A stretch of 50,514 nucleotides of DNA from Candidatus Gastranaerophilales bacterium. GTDB taxonomy: Bacteria; Cyanobacteriota; Vampirovibrionia; Gastranaerophilales; Gastranaerophilaceae. The position numbers and the translations under genes were made by a program. Shown here piece after piece: positions 5,864-45,752 of this stretch. Under the pieces are notes generated by a model. It was given only the letters and a program-made list of their open reading frames with translations. It made no database searches and was not told where the DNA came from. Every line of letters begins with the position of its first letter. Position 1 is the stretch's first letter. The DNA is taken from contig CALUYV010000003.1 in assembly GCA_944325095.1 (NCBI GenBank), forward strand, positions 1 to 50,514, written 5' to 3'.

Positions 5864-5869
5864 TAGAAT
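5864..5869 (+). promoter_or_regulatory. -10-like box placed for a leaderless transcript
   Basis: TAGAAT ends exactly 6 nt before the ATG at 5876, and no Shine-Dalgarno is present. If used, transcription would start at or next to the ATG. The -35 region (TGTAAA at 17-bp spacing) is weak. Confidence 0.4.
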
Positions 5870-5875
5870 ATTTTT

Positions 5876-6583
5876 ATGAATGATTTTATAAAAAATATCA
5901 AATATTTTATTCTGTCATTAAAAGAGAAATCTTTGCTGCGAAAACTTAAAGATTCTACAAGGCAAAGTTATACAAATAATGATACCAAAAATGTTATGAT
6001 AAAAGGTGCATCTCTCACCATAAACAGCAAAACACTCCAGACTATAGCGCAGGTAAAAGAAAATGTTACCTCGATTATTCAAAAAACTAACGGAGAGCCT
6101 GATGCACTTATTGATTATATAAAAGCAGCGAAAACCCCTGTGTATAAAATTAAAAATGCTGATAAAATTCTTAATTTTATAAATGAAGAAGAAGGTTTGA
6201 TTACCGAAAAAGAAGGTTTTGATGCTTTAATACTTTCTGTTTCAACGGGGCAGGGAATAAAATTTAAAACGGCACCGATGTTTGTTATGCGGGAAGGGAT
6301 AATAGAAAAATATTATATGCTGCATCATTTTTATTGCTGGTATTCTTTAAAATCCGGCCTGCCGGGTTTTGATTATAAGTCCAGAAAAATGTTCAAGCAA
6401 TATCTGGTTAACGGTTCTGACGATTTCACCGCTAAACTTTCAATGGCTCAAATACTTTCTTTGCAGGAGGCAATTGCCAGAGATCAAGAAGCTACGGCTT
6501 ATGTGCTTGAATATACCAAGCAAATTGAAGGTTCTCAAAATGTTATGGATAAAATTAAAAACGAAGGCAGTGCAAATATTTGA
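5876..6583 (+). CDS. Unknown protein, 235 aa
   Basis: I do not recognise this protein. It begins MNDFIKNIKYFILSLKEKSLLRKL, an amphipathic basic start rather than a clear signal peptide. The body is of mixed charge; a central segment is rich in aromatic residues (EKYYMLHHFYCWYSLKSGLPGFDY, roughly residues 145-168). The C-terminus is helical and polar. There is no Shine-Dalgarno, and a -10-like box lies 6 nt upstream. It sits alone between the pepA terminator and the SD-led gene at 6694. Codon use looks like the neighbours, so it is probably a genuine lineage-specific gene. Confidence 0.75.
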   Translation: MNDFIKNIKYFILSLKEKSLLRKLKDSTRQSYTNNDTKNVMIKGASLTINSKTLQTIAQVKENVTSIIQKTNGEPDALIDYIKAAKTPVYKIKNADKILNFINEEEGLITEKEGFDALILSVSTGQGIKFKTAPMFVMREGIIEKYYMLHHFYCWYSLKSGLPGFDYKSRKMFKQYLVNGSDDFTAKLSMAQILSLQEAIARDQEATAYVLEYTKQIEGSQNVMDKIKNEGSANI

Positions 6584-12166: not shown

Positions 12167-13279
12167 TTAGATACAGGTGCCGTTATCAATTTTATATATT
12201 TGAACATCTTTTAAAAATTCATCTTCAAAAAGAATTGTATCTACGGAAGTGATAATAGTCTGAGTTTGCGGATTGATAGATTTTAGCAGATAGTTTTGTC
12301 TGATGTCGTCAAGTTCTGCCAGTACATCATCAAGCAGCAGCACCGGTTCTTCTCCTGTTTTTTGCGTAATTATATCAAGTTCGGATAACTTCAATGAAAG
12401 GACAATGGTTCTTTGCTGACCCTGTGATGCAAATTTTGTTGCCTCTTGATTATTGATATAAAAAATTATGTCATCTCTGTGCGGGCCGACGCAGGATTGG
12501 CAGCGGCGGATTTCTTCATCCATTCTTTCTGTTAAGGACAAATGAAATTTGTCTTTTATTTGTTCTATATCTTCGGTTTCTGAATTTGCGCCGAGAAAAC
12601 TGCAGTCATACATAATTGAAAGGTTTTCGGTTTCGCTGATTGTTTTGTGTTTTGAAAGTGCTATTTTTTCAATTTCTTTAAGGTATTTTTTTCTGATATA
12701 GATAAGATTGCTTCCCGTTATTGATAATTGGTCGTTATATACATCAAGCAAATCTTTATCCATAGTGCCTGCTTTTGCGCAGGCTTTAAGAAAGTTATTT
12801 TTTTGAATGCGAATTTTTTCGTATTTAGTGAGTCTGTCGTCATACGCAGGATAAATTTGTGAAATCGCTCTGTCAAGCCAATCTCTTCTGTCCTGCGGGG
12901 TGCCTCTCAGTAACAGCAGGTCGGAAGAGGCAAAAAGAACTGTTTTTAAAACTGATTTGAAGTCTTTTATTGTTGATTTAACATTATTGAGTTTTGCTTC
13001 CCTTTTTTTATCTTGCGTATAGTTGTATGACATTGAAATATCAGTGTTTGCTTTAATAATATCGGCCTCAATCCTGAAATAATCTTTTTCAAAATTAATA
13101 AGTTCTGTTATATTTGATGTTCTCGGGGTTTTGAGTGTTGACAGGAAGCAGATGCTTTCCAGAATGTTTGTTTTCCCCTGAGCATTTTTTCCTATGATAA
13201 GAACTTTCATTTTGTCAAAGTTCAAAAAAAGGTCTGTGCAGTTTCTGTAATTTGTTAATTTCAAATCAGTTAATTTCAT
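12167..13279 (-). CDS. recF: DNA replication/repair protein RecF
   Basis: 370 aa from the ATG at 13279, the usual RecF start (MKLTDLKLTNYRNC); an in-frame TTG at 13297 is less likely. RecF is an SMC-like ATPase that, with RecO and RecR, loads RecA at single-strand gaps. Visible are Walker A GKNAQGKTNILES (about residues 31-43), the RecF block LLLRGTPQDRRDWLDRAI, the signature region FASQGQQRTIVLSLKLSE and Walker B LLLDDVLAELDDIR. In many bacteria recF lies beside dnaA and dnaN; here it is isolated and about 31 kb from dnaA. There is no SD; TATAAT lies exactly 6 nt upstream of the ATG. Confidence 0.95.
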   Translation of the reverse strand: MKLTDLKLTNYRNCTDLFLNFDKMKVLIIGKNAQGKTNILESICFLSTLKTPRTSNITELINFEKDYFRIEADIIKANTDISMSYNYTQDKKREAKLNNVKSTIKDFKSVLKTVLFASSDLLLLRGTPQDRRDWLDRAISQIYPAYDDRLTKYEKIRIQKNNFLKACAKAGTMDKDLLDVYNDQLSITGSNLIYIRKKYLKEIEKIALSKHKTISETENLSIMYDCSFLGANSETEDIEQIKDKFHLSLTERMDEEIRRCQSCVGPHRDDIIFYINNQEATKFASQGQQRTIVLSLKLSELDIITQKTGEEPVLLLDDVLAELDDIRQNYLLKSINPQTQTIITSVDTILFEDEFLKDVQIYKIDNGTCI

Positions 13280-13285
13280 AAAAAG

Positions 13286-13291
13286 ATTATA
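13286..13291 (-). promoter_or_regulatory. -10 box placed for a leaderless recF transcript
   Basis: Read on the minus strand, a perfect TATAAT is followed by 6 nt (CTTTTT) and the recF ATG. The corresponding -35 region is weak. The divergent promoter at 13320-13348 serves the opposite strand. Confidence 0.5.
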
Positions 13292-15637: not shown

Positions 15638-17626
15638 TTAATCTTTCATTTCTCTGAGTTTTTTTAATTGATCTCTAATCTGGGCAGCTCTTTCAAAATC
15701 AAGGATTTTTGCTGCTTTGTGCATATCTTTTTCGAGTTTGTCAATGAGTTTTGGAAGATCTTTCTTTTCTATTCCGAGGTCTATCATTTCTTCTGCAACA
15801 ATATCTTCTAAATCTCTGTAACTTGCAACAAGTGATAGCAGATTGTTTTCAATCGGTTTTTTAATTGTCTGCGGGATTATGTTGTATTTTTTGTTAAATT
15901 CAATCTGGAGTTTGCGCCGACGTTCTGTTTCTTTAATTGCTTTTTCCATTGATTCCGTGATTTTGTCGGCATACATAATGACTTCCCCGCAGGCATTTCT
16001 TGCTGCACGTCCTATCGTCTGGATTAAACTTGTATCAGACCGCAAAAAGCCTTCTTTATCCGCATCCATAATTGCGACAAGCGAAACTTCAGGGATATCA
16101 AGTCCTTCTCTCAGCAAGTTTACTCCGATTAGGACATCAAATTCTCCGAGCCGCAAATCTCTCAAAATTTCTACTCTTTCAATTGATTTTATTTCACTGT
16201 GCAGATATCGTACCCGTATTCCTTCCTGTATAAAAAAGTCCGTCAAATCTTCGGCCATCCGTTTGGTTAGTGTTGTTATCAGGATACGTTCATCTTTTTG
16301 CGCACGTTTTTTTATTTCGTTTTTCAAGTCCGGAATTTGCGAATCAATAGGACGCACTGATATTTTAGGGTCTAAAAGTCCTGTCGGGCGGATAATCTGT
16401 TCAACAATCTGCTGTGAGTTGTTTCTTTCAAATTCTGCAGGTGTTGCTGATATATAGATTTTTTGTCCGACTTTTTTATAAAATTCTTCATTTGTCAAAG
16501 GTCTGTTATCTTTTGCACAAGGCAGCCTGAAACCGTAATCAACAAGGACACTTTTTCTTGCGGCATCACCGTGGCTCATACCTTTGATTTGAGGAAGAGT
16601 AACATGCGATTCATCAATAACGGTCAAAAAATCCTTTGGAAAATAATCCAGAAGTGTTGCAGGTGCTGAACCTTTCGGGCGTCTTTCGATTATTCTGGAG
16701 TAGTTTTCAATTCCTGTACAATACCCCATTTCCTTAATCATTTCTATATCGTATTTGACTCTTTGTTCAAGCCGCTGTGCTTCTAACAGTTTATTTTCAT
16801 TGTTGAGTTCAACAAGTCTTTGCTGAAGTTCCTGCTTAATTAAATCTATTGTTTCATCAACATTATCATCATCTGACAGATAATGTACAGCAGGATATAT
16901 TACAACGGATTTCGGGGTTTCTATTATCTCTCCTGAAACATTGTCAATTTTTACGATTTTTTCAATCTCATCTCCCCAGAAATAAAATCTCGTGATTATT
17001 TTTTCATAAGCGGGCATAATTTCGACAATATCCCCTCTTGCCCTGAAAGTTGAACATTTTAATTCTAAATCATTTCTTTCATATCTTACACTGACAAAAT
17101 ATTTAAGCAGGTCATCTCTGTCTATGTTATCCCCTACTTTTATTTCAGCAGAACCTTTGAAGTAGTTTTCCGGAAGTCCCAGACCGTATATGCAGCTGAC
17201 TGAAGATACAACAATGACATCATTTCTTTCATACAGGCTTCTTGTTGTATTGTGGCGCAGTCTGTCTATTTCTTCATTTATTGAAGAGGATTTTTCTATA
17301 TAGGTGTCTGTTCGCGGAATGTAGGCTTCCGGCTGATAATAGTCATAATAACTTATGAAGTATTCAACCGCATTATCAGGGAACAGTTCTTTAAATTCGT
17401 TGTATAACTGGGCGGCAAGAGTTTTGTTATGCGCAATTATAAGTGTCGGTTTTTGTATTTGTTCTATAACATTTGCGATTGTAAAAGTTTTCCCCGATCC
17501 GGTTATTCCAAGAAGAGTTTGTGTGTCATATCCTTTTATTAAGCCGTCTGTTAACTGTTCTATTGCTTTTGGCTGATCTCCTGCGGGTCTGTATTTAGAG
17601 TGTATTTTAAATTTCCGGTATTCCAT
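15638..17626 (-). CDS. uvrB: Excinuclease ABC subunit B
   Basis: 662 aa, full length. UvrB is the damage-verification helicase of nucleotide excision repair, working with UvrA and UvrC. Present are Walker A LLGITGSGKTFTIANV (about residues 38-53), the beta-hairpin YYDYYQPEAYIPRTDTYIEK that inserts between strands, Walker B TVIDESHVTLPQ, helicase block GVNLLREGLDIPEVSLVAI with QTIGRAARN, and the C-terminal UVR domain (LEKDMHKAAKILDFERAAQIRD) that contacts UvrC. The start at 17626 has no SD; TAAAAT lies 7 nt upstream, again compatible with a very short or absent leader. Confidence 0.97.
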   Translation of the reverse strand: MEYRKFKIHSKYRPAGDQPKAIEQLTDGLIKGYDTQTLLGITGSGKTFTIANVIEQIQKPTLIIAHNKTLAAQLYNEFKELFPDNAVEYFISYYDYYQPEAYIPRTDTYIEKSSSINEEIDRLRHNTTRSLYERNDVIVVSSVSCIYGLGLPENYFKGSAEIKVGDNIDRDDLLKYFVSVRYERNDLELKCSTFRARGDIVEIMPAYEKIITRFYFWGDEIEKIVKIDNVSGEIIETPKSVVIYPAVHYLSDDDNVDETIDLIKQELQQRLVELNNENKLLEAQRLEQRVKYDIEMIKEMGYCTGIENYSRIIERRPKGSAPATLLDYFPKDFLTVIDESHVTLPQIKGMSHGDAARKSVLVDYGFRLPCAKDNRPLTNEEFYKKVGQKIYISATPAEFERNNSQQIVEQIIRPTGLLDPKISVRPIDSQIPDLKNEIKKRAQKDERILITTLTKRMAEDLTDFFIQEGIRVRYLHSEIKSIERVEILRDLRLGEFDVLIGVNLLREGLDIPEVSLVAIMDADKEGFLRSDTSLIQTIGRAARNACGEVIMYADKITESMEKAIKETERRRKLQIEFNKKYNIIPQTIKKPIENNLLSLVASYRDLEDIVAEEMIDLGIEKKDLPKLIDKLEKDMHKAAKILDFERAAQIRDQLKKLREMKD

Positions 17627-17769
17627 ATCAGATATTTTAATACAAAATAGTTTTTCTTGTATTCTATTTTTGATTTTGTAATGTAACCTTTTGTAAATTT
17701 CATTAAAGTTTTTTTCGATTTAACCGATATGTGTATTATGTACAATTTATATTGCGAGGTGTAGATATT

Positions 17770-22971: not shown

Positions 22972-23000
22972 TTGACCTCGTTTTAATAAAGTGTAATAAT
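22972..23000 (+). promoter_or_regulatory. Promoter of the ABC permease genes, leaderless arrangement
   Basis: TTGACC (22972-22977), a 17-bp spacer and AATAAT (22995-23000) are followed by 6 nt and the ATG at 23007. The transcript is predicted to begin at the start codon itself. Confidence 0.6.
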
Positions 23001-25851: not shown

Positions 25852-26727
25852 ATGAATATTCAATTCATTTCAGAATATTTAGAATATCTGGAGATTGAAA
25901 AAGGGCTTTCTCCAAACACCCTGGAAGCCTATAAACGGGATTTGACTTTTTTTATTGATTTTTGCACATCGAGAAACGAAAATGAAATTACCGATATAAA
26001 ACGAAATGATATAACATCTTATCTTATGAAACTCAAGGAAGAACATTATACATCAGCCAGTGTTACAAGAAAACTTGCTTCGCTGCGCGGGTTTTTCAAA
26101 TGGTTCTGCGCAAATGAATACGGTTCCAACAACCCTGTTCAGACTCTTGAGCAGCCTAAACTGCCGAAGCATCTGCCAAAGGTTATGACAGTTGAAGATT
26201 TAAATAGTATTATCAATTCAAATCTTGATGTTCTTCAATCTCTTGTGGTTGAATTGCTGTACGGCTGCGGATTGCGGGTTTCCGAACTCGTTAACTTAAA
26301 TATGAATGATATAGATATAAAATCAAAATATGTGCGCTGCTGCGGCAAAGGCTCAAAGGAACGGCTTATTCCTTTTGGTGAAAAAGCAAAAGAGGCATTG
26401 AAAAAATATTTTAAATCCAGAGATTTGATTGTATTACAAAACCATCTGGAAAAAAATAAAAAGTTATTGCTGAAAACTAACGGTAAATCTCTCACCCGTC
26501 AGGATGTGTATAATTTTATAAGAAAGCAGGGCGAAAAGATTAATAAACATATTACTCCTCATACTCTGCGGCATAGTTTTGCTACTCATCTGCTTGAAAA
26601 CGGTGCGGATTTGAGAGTTGTTCAGGAACTTTTGGGTCATAGTGATGTTTCTACAACCCAGTTATATACCCATATAACAAAGAAACGGCTTAAAGAAGTA
26701 TATTTTGCAATAAACAATGACTCGTGA
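25852..26727 (+). CDS. xerD: Tyrosine recombinase, XerC/XerD type
   Basis: 291 aa. Xer recombinases resolve chromosome dimers at dif near division. The N-terminal SAM-like domain (FISEYLEYLEIEKGLSPNTLEAYKRDL) precedes the catalytic domain. All active-site residues are visible: Arg in YGCGLRVSEL, Lys in GKGSKERLIPFG, the HxxR of TPHTLRHSFATHLLE, His in LGHSDVSTTQ and the nucleophile Tyr in LYTHI. The ending TKKRLKEVY favours the housekeeping Xer group over phage integrases. XerC versus XerD cannot be decided by eye, and the organism may use a single enzyme. AAGAGGTG precedes the ATG at somewhat long spacing. Confidence 0.9.
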   Translation: MNIQFISEYLEYLEIEKGLSPNTLEAYKRDLTFFIDFCTSRNENEITDIKRNDITSYLMKLKEEHYTSASVTRKLASLRGFFKWFCANEYGSNNPVQTLEQPKLPKHLPKVMTVEDLNSIINSNLDVLQSLVVELLYGCGLRVSELVNLNMNDIDIKSKYVRCCGKGSKERLIPFGEKAKEALKKYFKSRDLIVLQNHLEKNKKLLLKTNGKSLTRQDVYNFIRKQGEKINKHITPHTLRHSFATHLLENGADLRVVQELLGHSDVSTTQLYTHITKKRLKEVYFAINNDS

Positions 26728-26739
26728 TAATATGAAATT

Positions 26740-27459
26740 ATGCTAAAGGTTTTTATATCAGGGCTGGAAAAACAGACGGGTAAAACTATTGTTACTGCGG
26801 GACTTGCAGCAACAATGCAAAGTCTGTCTTATTCTACCGCAGTTTATAAGCCTATCCAGACAAATGCCGAAACTCTCCACGGGTTTAAAACATCTCCTGA
26901 TTTAACCGTTATTAAAAAATTTGATCCGAATATTTCAACGGATTCCACTTATGTATTGAAAAGTCCGGCTCCGCCTTTTATAAGTTCCTATGAAGATAAT
27001 GTGAAAATTGATGTAAATAATATTTATAATGATTTTCTGGCATCTGATAAAAATTCCGATTGTCTTATCGTTGAAGGCGCAAACAGTATAGCGGCACCTA
27101 TTGCAGAGCATTTTACTGAAATTAATCTTGTGAAGGCTTTGAATATCCCGCTTGTTCTTGTAATAAATCCTAAAATGATTTCTATTGAAAGGGCAATAAC
27201 CGGTATAAATTATATTCAATCATATAAATGCAGGTTTCTCGGTGTGATATTGAATAAATACGATGAGAATTCTGAAAATCTTGAAGAAAAGTATTACCCG
27301 CAGATATTGAAAGAGTTTGTTCCGGTGAAAATTTTGGGAGTTATTCCGGATTATGACAAAATACCGAGTTTTTCTCCGGAGTTACTGATTTCTGATGTCT
27401 TAAACCATGTTAATATTGAAGAAATTTTCGGGCTGAAAATAGCAAAATTAAATAATTAA
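26740..27459 (+). CDS. bioD: Dethiobiotin synthetase-like ATPase (BioD family)
   Basis: 239 aa. BioD closes the ureido ring of dethiobiotin from DAPA, CO2 and ATP. The P-loop reads GLEKQTGKTIVTAGLA (usual GTDTGVGKT), followed by YKPIQTN, SPAPPFISS (usual PAAPHLA) and LIVEGANSIAAPI (usual VEGAGG), so the fold and order match BioD. The P-loop differs from the standard form and no other biotin gene is near, so it could instead be a BioD-like domain protein of other function, such as the N-terminal domain type found in phosphotransacetylases. It starts 12 bp after the Xer stop without an SD, probably read in the same transcript. Confidence 0.7.
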   Translation: MLKVFISGLEKQTGKTIVTAGLAATMQSLSYSTAVYKPIQTNAETLHGFKTSPDLTVIKKFDPNISTDSTYVLKSPAPPFISSYEDNVKIDVNNIYNDFLASDKNSDCLIVEGANSIAAPIAEHFTEINLVKALNIPLVLVINPKMISIERAITGINYIQSYKCRFLGVILNKYDENSENLEEKYYPQILKEFVPVKILGVIPDYDKIPSFSPELLISDVLNHVNIEEIFGLKIAKLNN

Positions 27460-30294: not shown

Positions 30295-30323
30295 AAGACA
30301 AATTAACCTGCTTATGTTATACT
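30295..30323 (+). promoter_or_regulatory. Promoter of comM, leaderless arrangement
   Basis: AAGACA (30295-30300), a 17-bp spacer and TATACT (30318-30323) are followed by exactly 6 nt and the comM ATG at 30330. No Shine-Dalgarno exists. Confidence 0.55.
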
Positions 30324-30329
30324 TGCCGT

Positions 30330-31874
30330 ATGGTAAATACTGTAAAAACAACAACGGTAATAGGTCTTAACGCATACATTGTTTCTGTTGAAACGGATGT
30401 AGTTAATTCTCTGCCGGCAATTTCTATTGTTGGACTGCCGGATGCTTCTGTTAATGAAGCGCGTGACAGGGTTAAATCAGCAATAAAAAATTCCGGTTAT
30501 ACTTTTCCTGCCAAAAAAGTTGTAATAAACCTTGCGCCTGCTGATTTGAAAAAAGCCGGTACAAGTTTTGATTTGCCGATTGCTGTCGGAATTTTAACAG
30601 AAGAAGAGGTTTTGGAAAGTGAAAAACTACAGGATTATGCTTTTATAGGCGAATTATCTCTTGACGGTTCTATTCGCGGAGTTTCAGGTGTTTTGCCTCT
30701 TGTTCTGGGGTTAAGCGAAGCAGGCATAAAAAATGTCATTGTTCCGAAAGCCAATGTAAATGAAGCTGCTCTTTGTGTCGGAATAAATGTATATGGTGCA
30801 GAGCATTTAACACAGGTTGTAAACCATTTTACCGACAATCCGATAACCAAAACTACTGTTGATGTCCACCGGTATTTGAGTGAGCAGACAATTCAGAATT
30901 ATCCGTACGATTTTAAGGATGTTAAAGGTCAGAAAAAGGCAAAAAAAGCACTGGAGATTGCAGCAGCAGGCGGGCATAATATTTTGATGATAGGTTCGCC
31001 AGGGTCAGGCAAAACCCTTATGGCAAAATGTTTTGCATCTATTCTTCCACCGCTGGAATTATCTGAGGCTCTTGAACTTACAAAGATTTATAGTGTTTGC
31101 GGTTTGTTATCGGATGATGAGCCGCTTATGGCAAAACGACCTTTCAGAACCGTTCACCACACGGCATCTGCAAATGGTATTATCGGCGGCGGAAGCACCC
31201 CGAAACCCGGTGAAATTACTCTTGCAAACAGAGGGGTTTTGTTTTTGGATGAAATGGTTGAATTTCCCCGTCAGGTTCTCGAGGTTTTGAGGCAGCCGCT
31301 TGAAGACGGTGAAATTGTTATTTCCAGGGCAAAACATTCAATCAAATATCCTGCAAAATTTATACTTCTCGGGGCAATGAATCCGTGTCCGTGCGGGTAT
31401 TTGGGTGATAAAGAAAAACAGTGTACTTGTTCTGATTTTCAAATAAGCCGTTATCTTGCAAAATTATCAGGGCCTTTGCTTGACAGGATTGATATTCAGG
31501 TTGATGTTCCTCGTCTTACTCCTGAAGAACTGCTTAATTCTTCCCCTGCCGAAGAAGATTCCGCTGCAATAAGAGCGAGAGTGATAAAAGCAAGACAGAT
31601 ACAGTCAGACAGGTATAAAAATGAGAATATTTTGACTAATGCGGAATTAAATTCGGAATTAATCAAAAAATATTGCAAACTGGATGCCAGATCTCAGGAA
31701 TTATTAAAGATAGCGATTGTAAAATACCAGTTATCCGGCAGGCGGTATGACAGGGTTTTAAAACTTGCAAGAACTATTGCCGATATTGACGGAAGTGAAA
31801 ATATTGAGCAAATTCATCTTATGCAGGCTCTTCAATTCAAAGTATTTAACGCTGAAACTTTCGGTAAGGGCTGA
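30330..31874 (+). CDS. comM: ComM/YifB-type AAA+ ATPase (Mg-chelatase family)
   Basis: 514 aa. In naturally transformable bacteria ComM is a hexameric helicase that promotes branch migration when incoming DNA recombines. The N-terminal domain (AISIVGLPDASVNEARDRV, GTSFDLPIAVGIL) is followed by the AAA+ module: Walker A GSPGSGKTLMAKCFASILPP (about 216-235), Walker B GVLFLDEMVEF, and the insert MNPCPCGYLGD...CTCS, whose cysteines probably bind zinc; then SGPLLDRIDIQVDVPR. It is full length. Translation probably starts on a leaderless mRNA. Together with pilT it raises the possibility of DNA uptake, which is inference. Confidence 0.92.
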   Translation: MVNTVKTTTVIGLNAYIVSVETDVVNSLPAISIVGLPDASVNEARDRVKSAIKNSGYTFPAKKVVINLAPADLKKAGTSFDLPIAVGILTEEEVLESEKLQDYAFIGELSLDGSIRGVSGVLPLVLGLSEAGIKNVIVPKANVNEAALCVGINVYGAEHLTQVVNHFTDNPITKTTVDVHRYLSEQTIQNYPYDFKDVKGQKKAKKALEIAAAGGHNILMIGSPGSGKTLMAKCFASILPPLELSEALELTKIYSVCGLLSDDEPLMAKRPFRTVHHTASANGIIGGGSTPKPGEITLANRGVLFLDEMVEFPRQVLEVLRQPLEDGEIVISRAKHSIKYPAKFILLGAMNPCPCGYLGDKEKQCTCSDFQISRYLAKLSGPLLDRIDIQVDVPRLTPEELLNSSPAEEDSAAIRARVIKARQIQSDRYKNENILTNAELNSELIKKYCKLDARSQELLKIAIVKYQLSGRRYDRVLKLARTIADIDGSENIEQIHLMQALQFKVFNAETFGKG

Positions 31875-44263: not shown

Positions 44264-44312
44264 ATTAGTTTATATTTGTTTATATATAATTTATTTCATA
44301 AATTTTTTAAGA

Positions 44313-44318
44313 TATTAT
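44313..44318 (+). promoter_or_regulatory. -10 box placed for a leaderless dnaA transcript
   Basis: TATTAT is followed by exactly 6 nt (ATTTAC) and the dnaA ATG at 44325. No SD is present and the -35 region is weak. Confidence 0.45.
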
Positions 44319-44324
44319 ATTTAC

Positions 44325-45752
44325 ATGGATATTACGGATGTTAATGTTATTTGGGATAAAGTAAAGGCTGATCTTGAGGAGAATTTACCCGAACATGTCT
44401 ATAACAACTGGGTAACGCCTCTTGCGGCGGTTGATTGTGAAAACAATACTCTTGTGTTGTATTCTCCGCATTCTATGGCTGTTGATATTTTAAAAAAGAG
44501 CTGGTCTAAGATCTTAAAAAACTCTGTAGTGAAAATCCTTGGAGAAAATGCTTCTTATTCGCTCAGTTACGATCCTGAGTATGCAAAAAGTTATATAAAA
44601 ACCCAGAAAGAAGAACTAAAAAAACAAAAAGCCGGACAATCAAAAGAAGAGCGCACTGCAGAAGATGCCAGAGCCGCCCTTGCAAAAATGCAATCCAGTG
44701 CTAATTTGAATTTGAATTTGAAGTTTGAAAATTTTGTCGTCGGGGAAAATTCAAAATTCGCCTATAATATTGCTTATACTGTTGCAAATAATCCGTCAAA
44801 ACAGTTCAATCCGTTATTTATATACGGAGCCTCCGGTCTTGGGAAAACGCATCTGCTTCAGGCAATAGGGCATTATATAATATTCAACAAGCCCGAGTTG
44901 TCTGTTCGTTATGTAAGGATGGAAGAATACTTTAACGAAATGATGCGCTGTTATAAACTCAATGAGGCACCGGGTGCTAAGAAAAAACAATACTGTGATA
45001 ATGCCGCAATGAGAAAATTTCATCAAAAATTCAGCAATATAGATATTTTATTGATGGATGATATTCAGTTTTTGGAATCAAAACATAAGACAATGGAAGA
45101 TTTTTTCTCAACATTTGAGGCTTTATATACAAATAACAAGCAGATTGTTATAGCATCTGACAGAGAGCCGAAGGATATTCCGACTCTTGATAAAAGGCTT
45201 CGCACCCGTTTTGAAATGGGTATTGTTGTAGATATTCTTCCGCCTGATTTTAAAACACGATATGAGATAGTAAAAGCGTACGCTAAAGAATTGGATGTAG
45301 CCGCAGAAGATGATGTGTTTAAGTTTATTGCGGAAAATTTTGATAACAATGTGCGGGAATTAAAAGGTGCATTCAATAAAGTCAGTGCGTTTGCAGGATT
45401 TTCAGATATAAGTGTAATTACTTTGGATGTAGCACAGCAGGTATTGAAAAACTCAATTAAGAAAAATGAATTGACTATTGATATGGTTGCCGGTGCCGCA
45501 GCCGGATATTTCGGAGTAAGTGTTAAAGATCTGAAAGGTACAGCAAGGCAGCAAAAGATTTCTAATGCAAGACAGATTACGGCATATTTGGCACGGGAAA
45601 TTCTTTCATTAAGTTATGAATCAATTGCGGATTATCTTGAGAAAAAGCATACAACAATTCTTTATTCCTGTGAAACTGTCGGGGAAAAAATAAAGGTTAA
45701 TTCTGATTTTGCACAGACCGTTCAGGAGATAAAATCTAAGATAAAAAAATAA
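44325..45752 (+). CDS. dnaA: Chromosomal replication initiator DnaA
   Basis: 475 aa. DnaA binds DnaA boxes at oriC and opens the duplex. Domain I (VIWDKVKADLEENLPEHVYNNWVTPL), a charged linker, then the AAA+ domain: Walker A GASGLGKTHLLQAIGHYI, Walker B LLMDDIQFLESK with AYLAR-type helix region later, sensor ASDREPKDI and RLRTRFEMG arginine region. An insertion (GAKKKQYCDNAAMR, ~residues 218-231) precedes Walker B. In domain IV the signature, usually GGRDHTTV, reads LEKKHTTI, so residues that contact the DnaA box differ. It is followed by ruvA rather than dnaN; no clustered canonical boxes are seen upstream. Confidence 0.95.
   Translation: MDITDVNVIWDKVKADLEENLPEHVYNNWVTPLAAVDCENNTLVLYSPHSMAVDILKKSWSKILKNSVVKILGENASYSLSYDPEYAKSYIKTQKEELKKQKAGQSKEERTAEDARAALAKMQSSANLNLNLKFENFVVGENSKFAYNIAYTVANNPSKQFNPLFIYGASGLGKTHLLQAIGHYIIFNKPELSVRYVRMEEYFNEMMRCYKLNEAPGAKKKQYCDNAAMRKFHQKFSNIDILLMDDIQFLESKHKTMEDFFSTFEALYTNNKQIVIASDREPKDIPTLDKRLRTRFEMGIVVDILPPDFKTRYEIVKAYAKELDVAAEDDVFKFIAENFDNNVRELKGAFNKVSAFAGFSDISVITLDVAQQVLKNSIKKNELTIDMVAGAAAGYFGVSVKDLKGTARQQKISNARQITAYLAREILSLSYESIADYLEKKHTTILYSCETVGEKIKVNSDFAQTVQEIKSKIKK

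Follow-up and report, generated by a model that had tools for sequence, protein, structure and literature searches.

The window, by which we mean the whole 50,514-nucleotide stretch of DNA analysed (positions 1–50514 of contig C3; 35% GC), comes from a 1.79-Mb genome in 113 contigs that belongs to the Gastranaerophilales, gut bacteria that are non-photosynthetic relatives of the cyanobacteria. Its dnaA is 90, 89, and 87% identical to its closest relatives in named genomes, which are from uncultured bacteria. Several genes of the window that lack a Shine–Dalgarno sequence (SD) have a −10-like hexamer directly upstream of the start codon (Table 1). A sequence-only reading had picked out five of them with the hexamer ending exactly 6 nt before ATG (dnaA, recF, comM, a MalF-like permease gene, and the gene at 5876), had added uvrB with a spacing of 7 nt, and had proposed leaderless transcription alongside SD-led genes. 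Read off the window sequence, every one of these hexamers, including that of uvrB, sits at the position and spacing claimed. The permease gene, a sugar ABC permease with a PF00528 match, is the weak case; its hexamer, 6-nt gap, and ATG are present, but AATAAT does not fit TANNNT. The product of the gene at 5876 had no match in NCBIfam and Pfam profile searches, and the single sites at this gene and at the permease gene may be chance matches. The list had also overlooked bioD, where an extended −10 element lies at the same distance from ATG. The upstream gene (25852–26727) ends in TGA, which doubles as the TGn of this element and would give bioD an internal leaderless promoter right at that stop codon. 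In all, the window has 14 SD-less ATG starts, and in 5 of them TANNNT ends exactly 6 nt upstream, where ~0.6 would be expected from the genomic background rate.

Table 1. Candidate promoter elements and the genes that follow them in the window
Feature	Position	Strand	Remarks
−10-like hexamer TAGAAT	5864–5869	+	6 nt before ATG 5876
Gene 5876, 235 aa	5876–6583	+	no family match
recF CDS	12167–13279	−	TIGR00611 recF, 300 bits
recF −10 hexamer TATAAT	13286–13291	−	6 nt before ATG 13279
uvrB CDS	15638–17626	−	NF003673, 1026 bits
uvrB −10 hexamer TAAAAT	17634–17639	−	7 nt before ATG 17626
Permease TTGACC, 17 bp, AATAAT (22995–23000)	22972–23000	+	ATG 23007; weak case
bioD extended −10 TGATAATAT	26725–26733	+	6 nt before ATG 26740
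bioD (dethiobiotin synthase) CDS	26740–27459	+	TIGR00347, 99.2 bits
comM −10 hexamer TATACT	30318–30323	+	6 nt before ATG 30330
comM (YifB family Mg chelatase-like AAA ATPase) CDS	30330–31874	+	TIGR00368, 646 bits
dnaA −10 hexamer TATTAT	44313–44318	+	6 nt before ATG 44325
dnaA CDS	44325–45752	+	TIGR00362 DnaA, 427.8 bits

A −10 hexamer is enriched 6 nt before ATG in SD-less genes

A simple coding-potential script, run on stretches of the genome that add up to 1.44 Mb, called 1112 genes. We kept the 551 genes with an unambiguous ATG, defined as the first candidate start after an in-frame stop with no further ATG, GTG, or TTG in frame within 45 nt. An SD was scored as present when GGAG, GAGG, AGGA, or AAGG matched 5 to 20 nt upstream, which divided the set into 195 SD-less and 356 SD genes. 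Among the SD-less genes, TANNNT ended exactly 6 nt before ATG in 53 of 195, compared with 8.35 expected (the mean TANNNT count over the other positions of the same 195 genes; binomial p = 1.5e-27), and the adjoining spacings held 12 sites at 7 nt and 3 at 5 nt. The genome-wide −10 enrichment at ATG minus 12 to minus 7 that the sequence-only reading had anticipated, and whose absence it had counted against itself, is present, about six-fold in size and limited to SD-less genes; in SD genes there was no TANNNT peak at 6 nt (12/356 versus 15.7 expected). A first-order Markov null on the same sequences gave 9.1 ± 3.0 sites, with a maximum of 22 in 1000 draws, versus 52 observed, and the rearranged, composition-matched pattern ATNNNT had no peak. 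There was also no peak at 6 nt for GTG and TTG starts, which include few SD-less genes (5 GTG and 25 TTG). The excess at 6 nt amounts to ~8% of all unambiguous ATG genes, and chance alone would account for ~8 of the 53 sites.

The candidates avoid the interior of operons. A codirectional gene ends no more than 30 nt upstream of 15% of them versus 37% of other genes (Fisher p = 7e-4), and this scarcity, an indirect test from gene order, fits with their being the first genes of transcripts. Family searches identified among them dnaA, recF, comM (YifB family), uvrB, bioD, lepA, mutS2, and a FliI/YscN-type ATPase, and further der, smpB, engB (YsxC), dxr, kdsA, ribF, proB, comF-like, gatD-like, and other genes. 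In a separate observation, two adjacent PF08780 (nucleotidyltransferase substrate-binding) genes at L003:2504-3652 (minus strand) each have a near-identical putative leaderless promoter, reading TATGCTAATATCAA, then ACT or GTT, then ATG, which suggests that promoter and gene were duplicated together.

The sites have the form of an extended −10 promoter

When 60 candidates were aligned on the hexamer, the consensus was an extended −10 element, TnTGnTATAAT, with a weak TTG at 17 bp and a T before ATG. Counting from the hexamer, T is found at −3 in 67% and G at −2 in 52%, so that TGn lies directly upstream of the hexamer as in extended −10 promoters of the sigma-70/SigA type; the −10 of dnaA in the window is without TGn. 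Within the hexamer, positions 1, 2, and 6 were fixed by the choice of candidates and carry no evidence, and positions 4 and 5 are A in 72 and 78%. The base just before ATG is T in 75%. The −35 region is weak, with TTG at 17 bp in 10 of the 60 and at least four matches to TTGACA in 13 of the 60.

The TGn was not part of the candidate choice, and in SD-less genes the longer pattern TGnTANNNT has 21 occurrences at 6 nt, 4 at 7 nt, and none at 0–5 or 8–10 nt. In SD genes, the same pattern is spread broadly, about 17–39 nt upstream of ATG. The genome thus appears to place one kind of promoter at two distances from the start codon. In a sigma-70 promoter, the −10 hexamer is normally separated from +1 by 6 nt, so the A of ATG is the expected first transcribed base, and for dnaA we infer a transcription start at the first base of the ATG listed in Table 1.

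Spacing is conserved in dnaA, recF, and comM orthologs

Within the window's own family, 41 of 44 dnaA orthologs have TANNNT exactly 6 nt upstream of ATG, and in close relatives the hexamer reads TATTAT or TATCAT. The three exceptions (L126–L128) are all from genus g3, whose dnaA start region aligns differently from that of the other family genomes examined, perhaps because of an N-terminal extension or another start codon. The hexamer is at 6 nt in all 30 comM orthologs and in 25 of 30 recF orthologs, with 3 more recF orthologs at 7 nt. The spacing is constant and the spacer sequence varies, with 28 (dnaA), 24 (comM), and 20 (recF) distinct spacers; the aligned comM sites carry much information at the hexamer, little across the spacer, and much again at the base preceding ATG. 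Orthologs of all three genes align from residue 1 in nearly all cases. In the few orthologs seen from other families, individual genes do not retain the leaderless arrangement.

Two further upstream elements were noted. In dnaA, TTATATATAATTTATTT (44280–44296), ~30–45 nt upstream of ATG, is nearly invariant in the close relatives L021–L023 and L085; it could be a second promoter or an AT-rich element. A second TATAAT ~30 nt upstream of the dnaA ATG is invariant in the window's species group, so dnaA may have two promoters there. In recF, many genomes (L174–L196) have a AGTCTATA-like element and a ATCATATATTTG-like block ~25–50 nt upstream of ATG, ahead of the −10, which are possibly an operator or an unusual −35.

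We considered whether the TA-rich hexamer might instead be a translational element, such as an A/U-rich S1 site or an unstructured start region, within an ordinary leader. Bacterial SD-less genes are often A/U-rich around the start, and S1 sites are hard to tell apart from promoters (Nakagawa et al., PMC5397173). However, an S1 site needs no exact spacing, whereas the peak here is one position wide (53, 12, and 3 sites at 6, 7, and 5 nt), the sites carry the promoter marks TGn and TTG at 17 bp, a pattern of matched composition has no peak, and orthologs hold the spacing while the spacer sequence changes, all of which make this account very improbable. We were also concerned that start codons assigned from sequence alone could be wrong, and that the true starts lie further downstream, in which case a promoter at −12 to −7 would merely give a short leader for the later start. 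The test set contains no other in-frame ATG, GTG, or TTG within 45 nt, and nearly all dnaA, recF, and comM orthologs align from their first residue, so that a general misplacement of starts has only a slim chance of being right. Chance matches in an AT-rich genome (35% GC) are ruled out as a genome-wide account, and have a negligible probability for the original five sites, since TANNNT, common as it is (~8 of 195 expected at any position), was observed 53 times against a Markov maximum of 22, and the spacing is conserved in orthologs.

The signal is strongest in one family

Raw counts of TATAAT–gap–ATG that ignore gene context separate the gaps poorly (68 at gap 6 and 61–65 at gaps 4, 7, and 13), so only TGNTATAAT was clean enough for counts across genomes. 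We therefore compared TGNTATAATN6ATG with the same pattern having 9 nt. In the window's own family (f1 by kinship labels, which we take from the order name to be Gastranaerophilaceae), the 6-nt and 9-nt patterns numbered 2194:421, with the same direction in all 95 genomes. The signal fades outside this family. The 22 genomes from other families of the order gave 128:60 (f6 36:5, f7 16:4, f3 61:29, and f5 7:4, with the opposite direction in f2, 3:8, and f4, 5:10), family f8 of the class, with five genomes, gave 18:9, and 131 genomes from the rest of the phylum gave 279:220. None of these totals, that of the window's family included, is made up of independent counts, because the genomes are related and sites are common to several of them. 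The pattern is bound to TATAAT, and any lineage whose −10 sequence differs from this is possibly undercounted. In SD-less genes of four relatives, each sampled over 170–200 kb and thus too small for a firm genome-level test, TANNNT stood at 6 nt in 4/18 (G060; p = 0.009), 2/18 (G013), 3/33 (G126), and 1/7 (G090).

Discussion

We consider it about 93% probable that a sizeable minority of genes in this genome, roughly 8–10% of those with unambiguous starts, is transcribed from the A of AUG via extended −10 promoters. In the proposed mechanism, the housekeeping sigma factor would recognise the promoters of the leaderless gene set, which are of the extended −10 type (TnTGnTATAAT with a weak −35). 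Their −10 would end 6, sometimes 7, nt before AUG, and RNA polymerase would initiate at the A of AUG, the start indicated by promoter geometry, to yield an mRNA without a leader. The ribosome (70S, or 30S with initiator tRNA) would then take the 5′-terminal AUG without SD pairing, and the remaining genes would have the identical promoter element ~17–39 nt upstream, followed by a leader and an SD. Both the leaderless translation and the sigma factor in this scheme are predicted from sequence, and any single gene may have a leader of 1–3 nt or an extra upstream promoter.

It is also conceivable, if rather unlikely, that leaderless promoters spread in the Gastranaerophilaceae as a derived, gene-specific programme and are not an ancestral remnant. 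Selection would then hold a fixed replication, recombination, and ribosome-maintenance set (dnaA, recF, and comM, and perhaps uvrB, mutS2, lepA, der, engB, and smpB) under a mode of translation separable from that of SD-led genes. The leaderless signal falls on the same genes across genera, so genome data alone can address why particular genes, dnaA foremost, stay leaderless, and can also ask whether the leaderless mode was gained, or only lost, in evolution. In practical terms, anyone predicting gene starts or designing reporters for these gut bacteria, which are abundant but hard to culture, must take leaderless starts into account.

The 2011 survey of leaderless genes by Zheng et al. is said to be older than the Gastranaerophilales genomes. 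In the parts of it drawn on here, TA-led (leaderless) genes occur in many bacterial phyla and make up 2–46% of genes by phylum, with TANNNT ~10 bp upstream of the start in SD-less genes and SD-led genes alongside, as in our genome (PMC3160421). Cyanobacteria are absent from the relevant passage of its Table 2, and many cyanobacterial genomes are described there as using neither signal (PMC3160421). Reports of high leaderless fractions in Cyanobacteria are cited in a passage of Nakagawa et al. 2017 (PMC5397173), so that, as far as these passages go, the cyanobacterial record is mixed. The family in which our signal peaks belongs to the same phylum as the photosynthetic cyanobacteria, where the earlier survey, in those passages, found little. 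Leaderless genes being known across bacteria, the Gastranaerophilales are a new lineage for a known phenomenon, and the points of interest are its lineage-specific spread and gene-specific conservation. A literature search, with most subscription papers outside its scope, returned none linking "leaderless" with Gastranaerophilales, Melainabacteria, or Vampirovibrio; the mechanism is already known, and there appears to be no earlier description of its presence in this family, of its strength there, or of its conservation on particular genes.

In mycobacteria, RNA sequencing has mapped the 5′ ends, and GUG as well as AUG serves as a start. This leaderless use of GUG differs from the genome studied here, which has no peak at its few GTG and TTG starts. 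According to the portions of two mycobacterial studies relevant here, the systems are otherwise alike in their TANNNT promoter and intermixed SD-led genes, with mycobacterial transcription beginning at the start codon (PMC3898074, PMC4633059). In Deinococcus-Thermus, reporters showed that leaderless mRNA is driven by a −10 element lying a few bp ahead of the ORF and boosted by a −35 region, and a domain-wide motif scan (Fig. S7) is given by phylum (Zhong et al. 2025, PMC12340547). The Gastranaerophilales resemble this system in having the −10 adjoin the ORF, in our case as judged from sequence alone, and differ from it in the share of genes involved (about 8–10% compared with ~30% of ORFs in Deinococcus-Thermus) and in the prominence of the extended TGn −10 element (PMC12340547).
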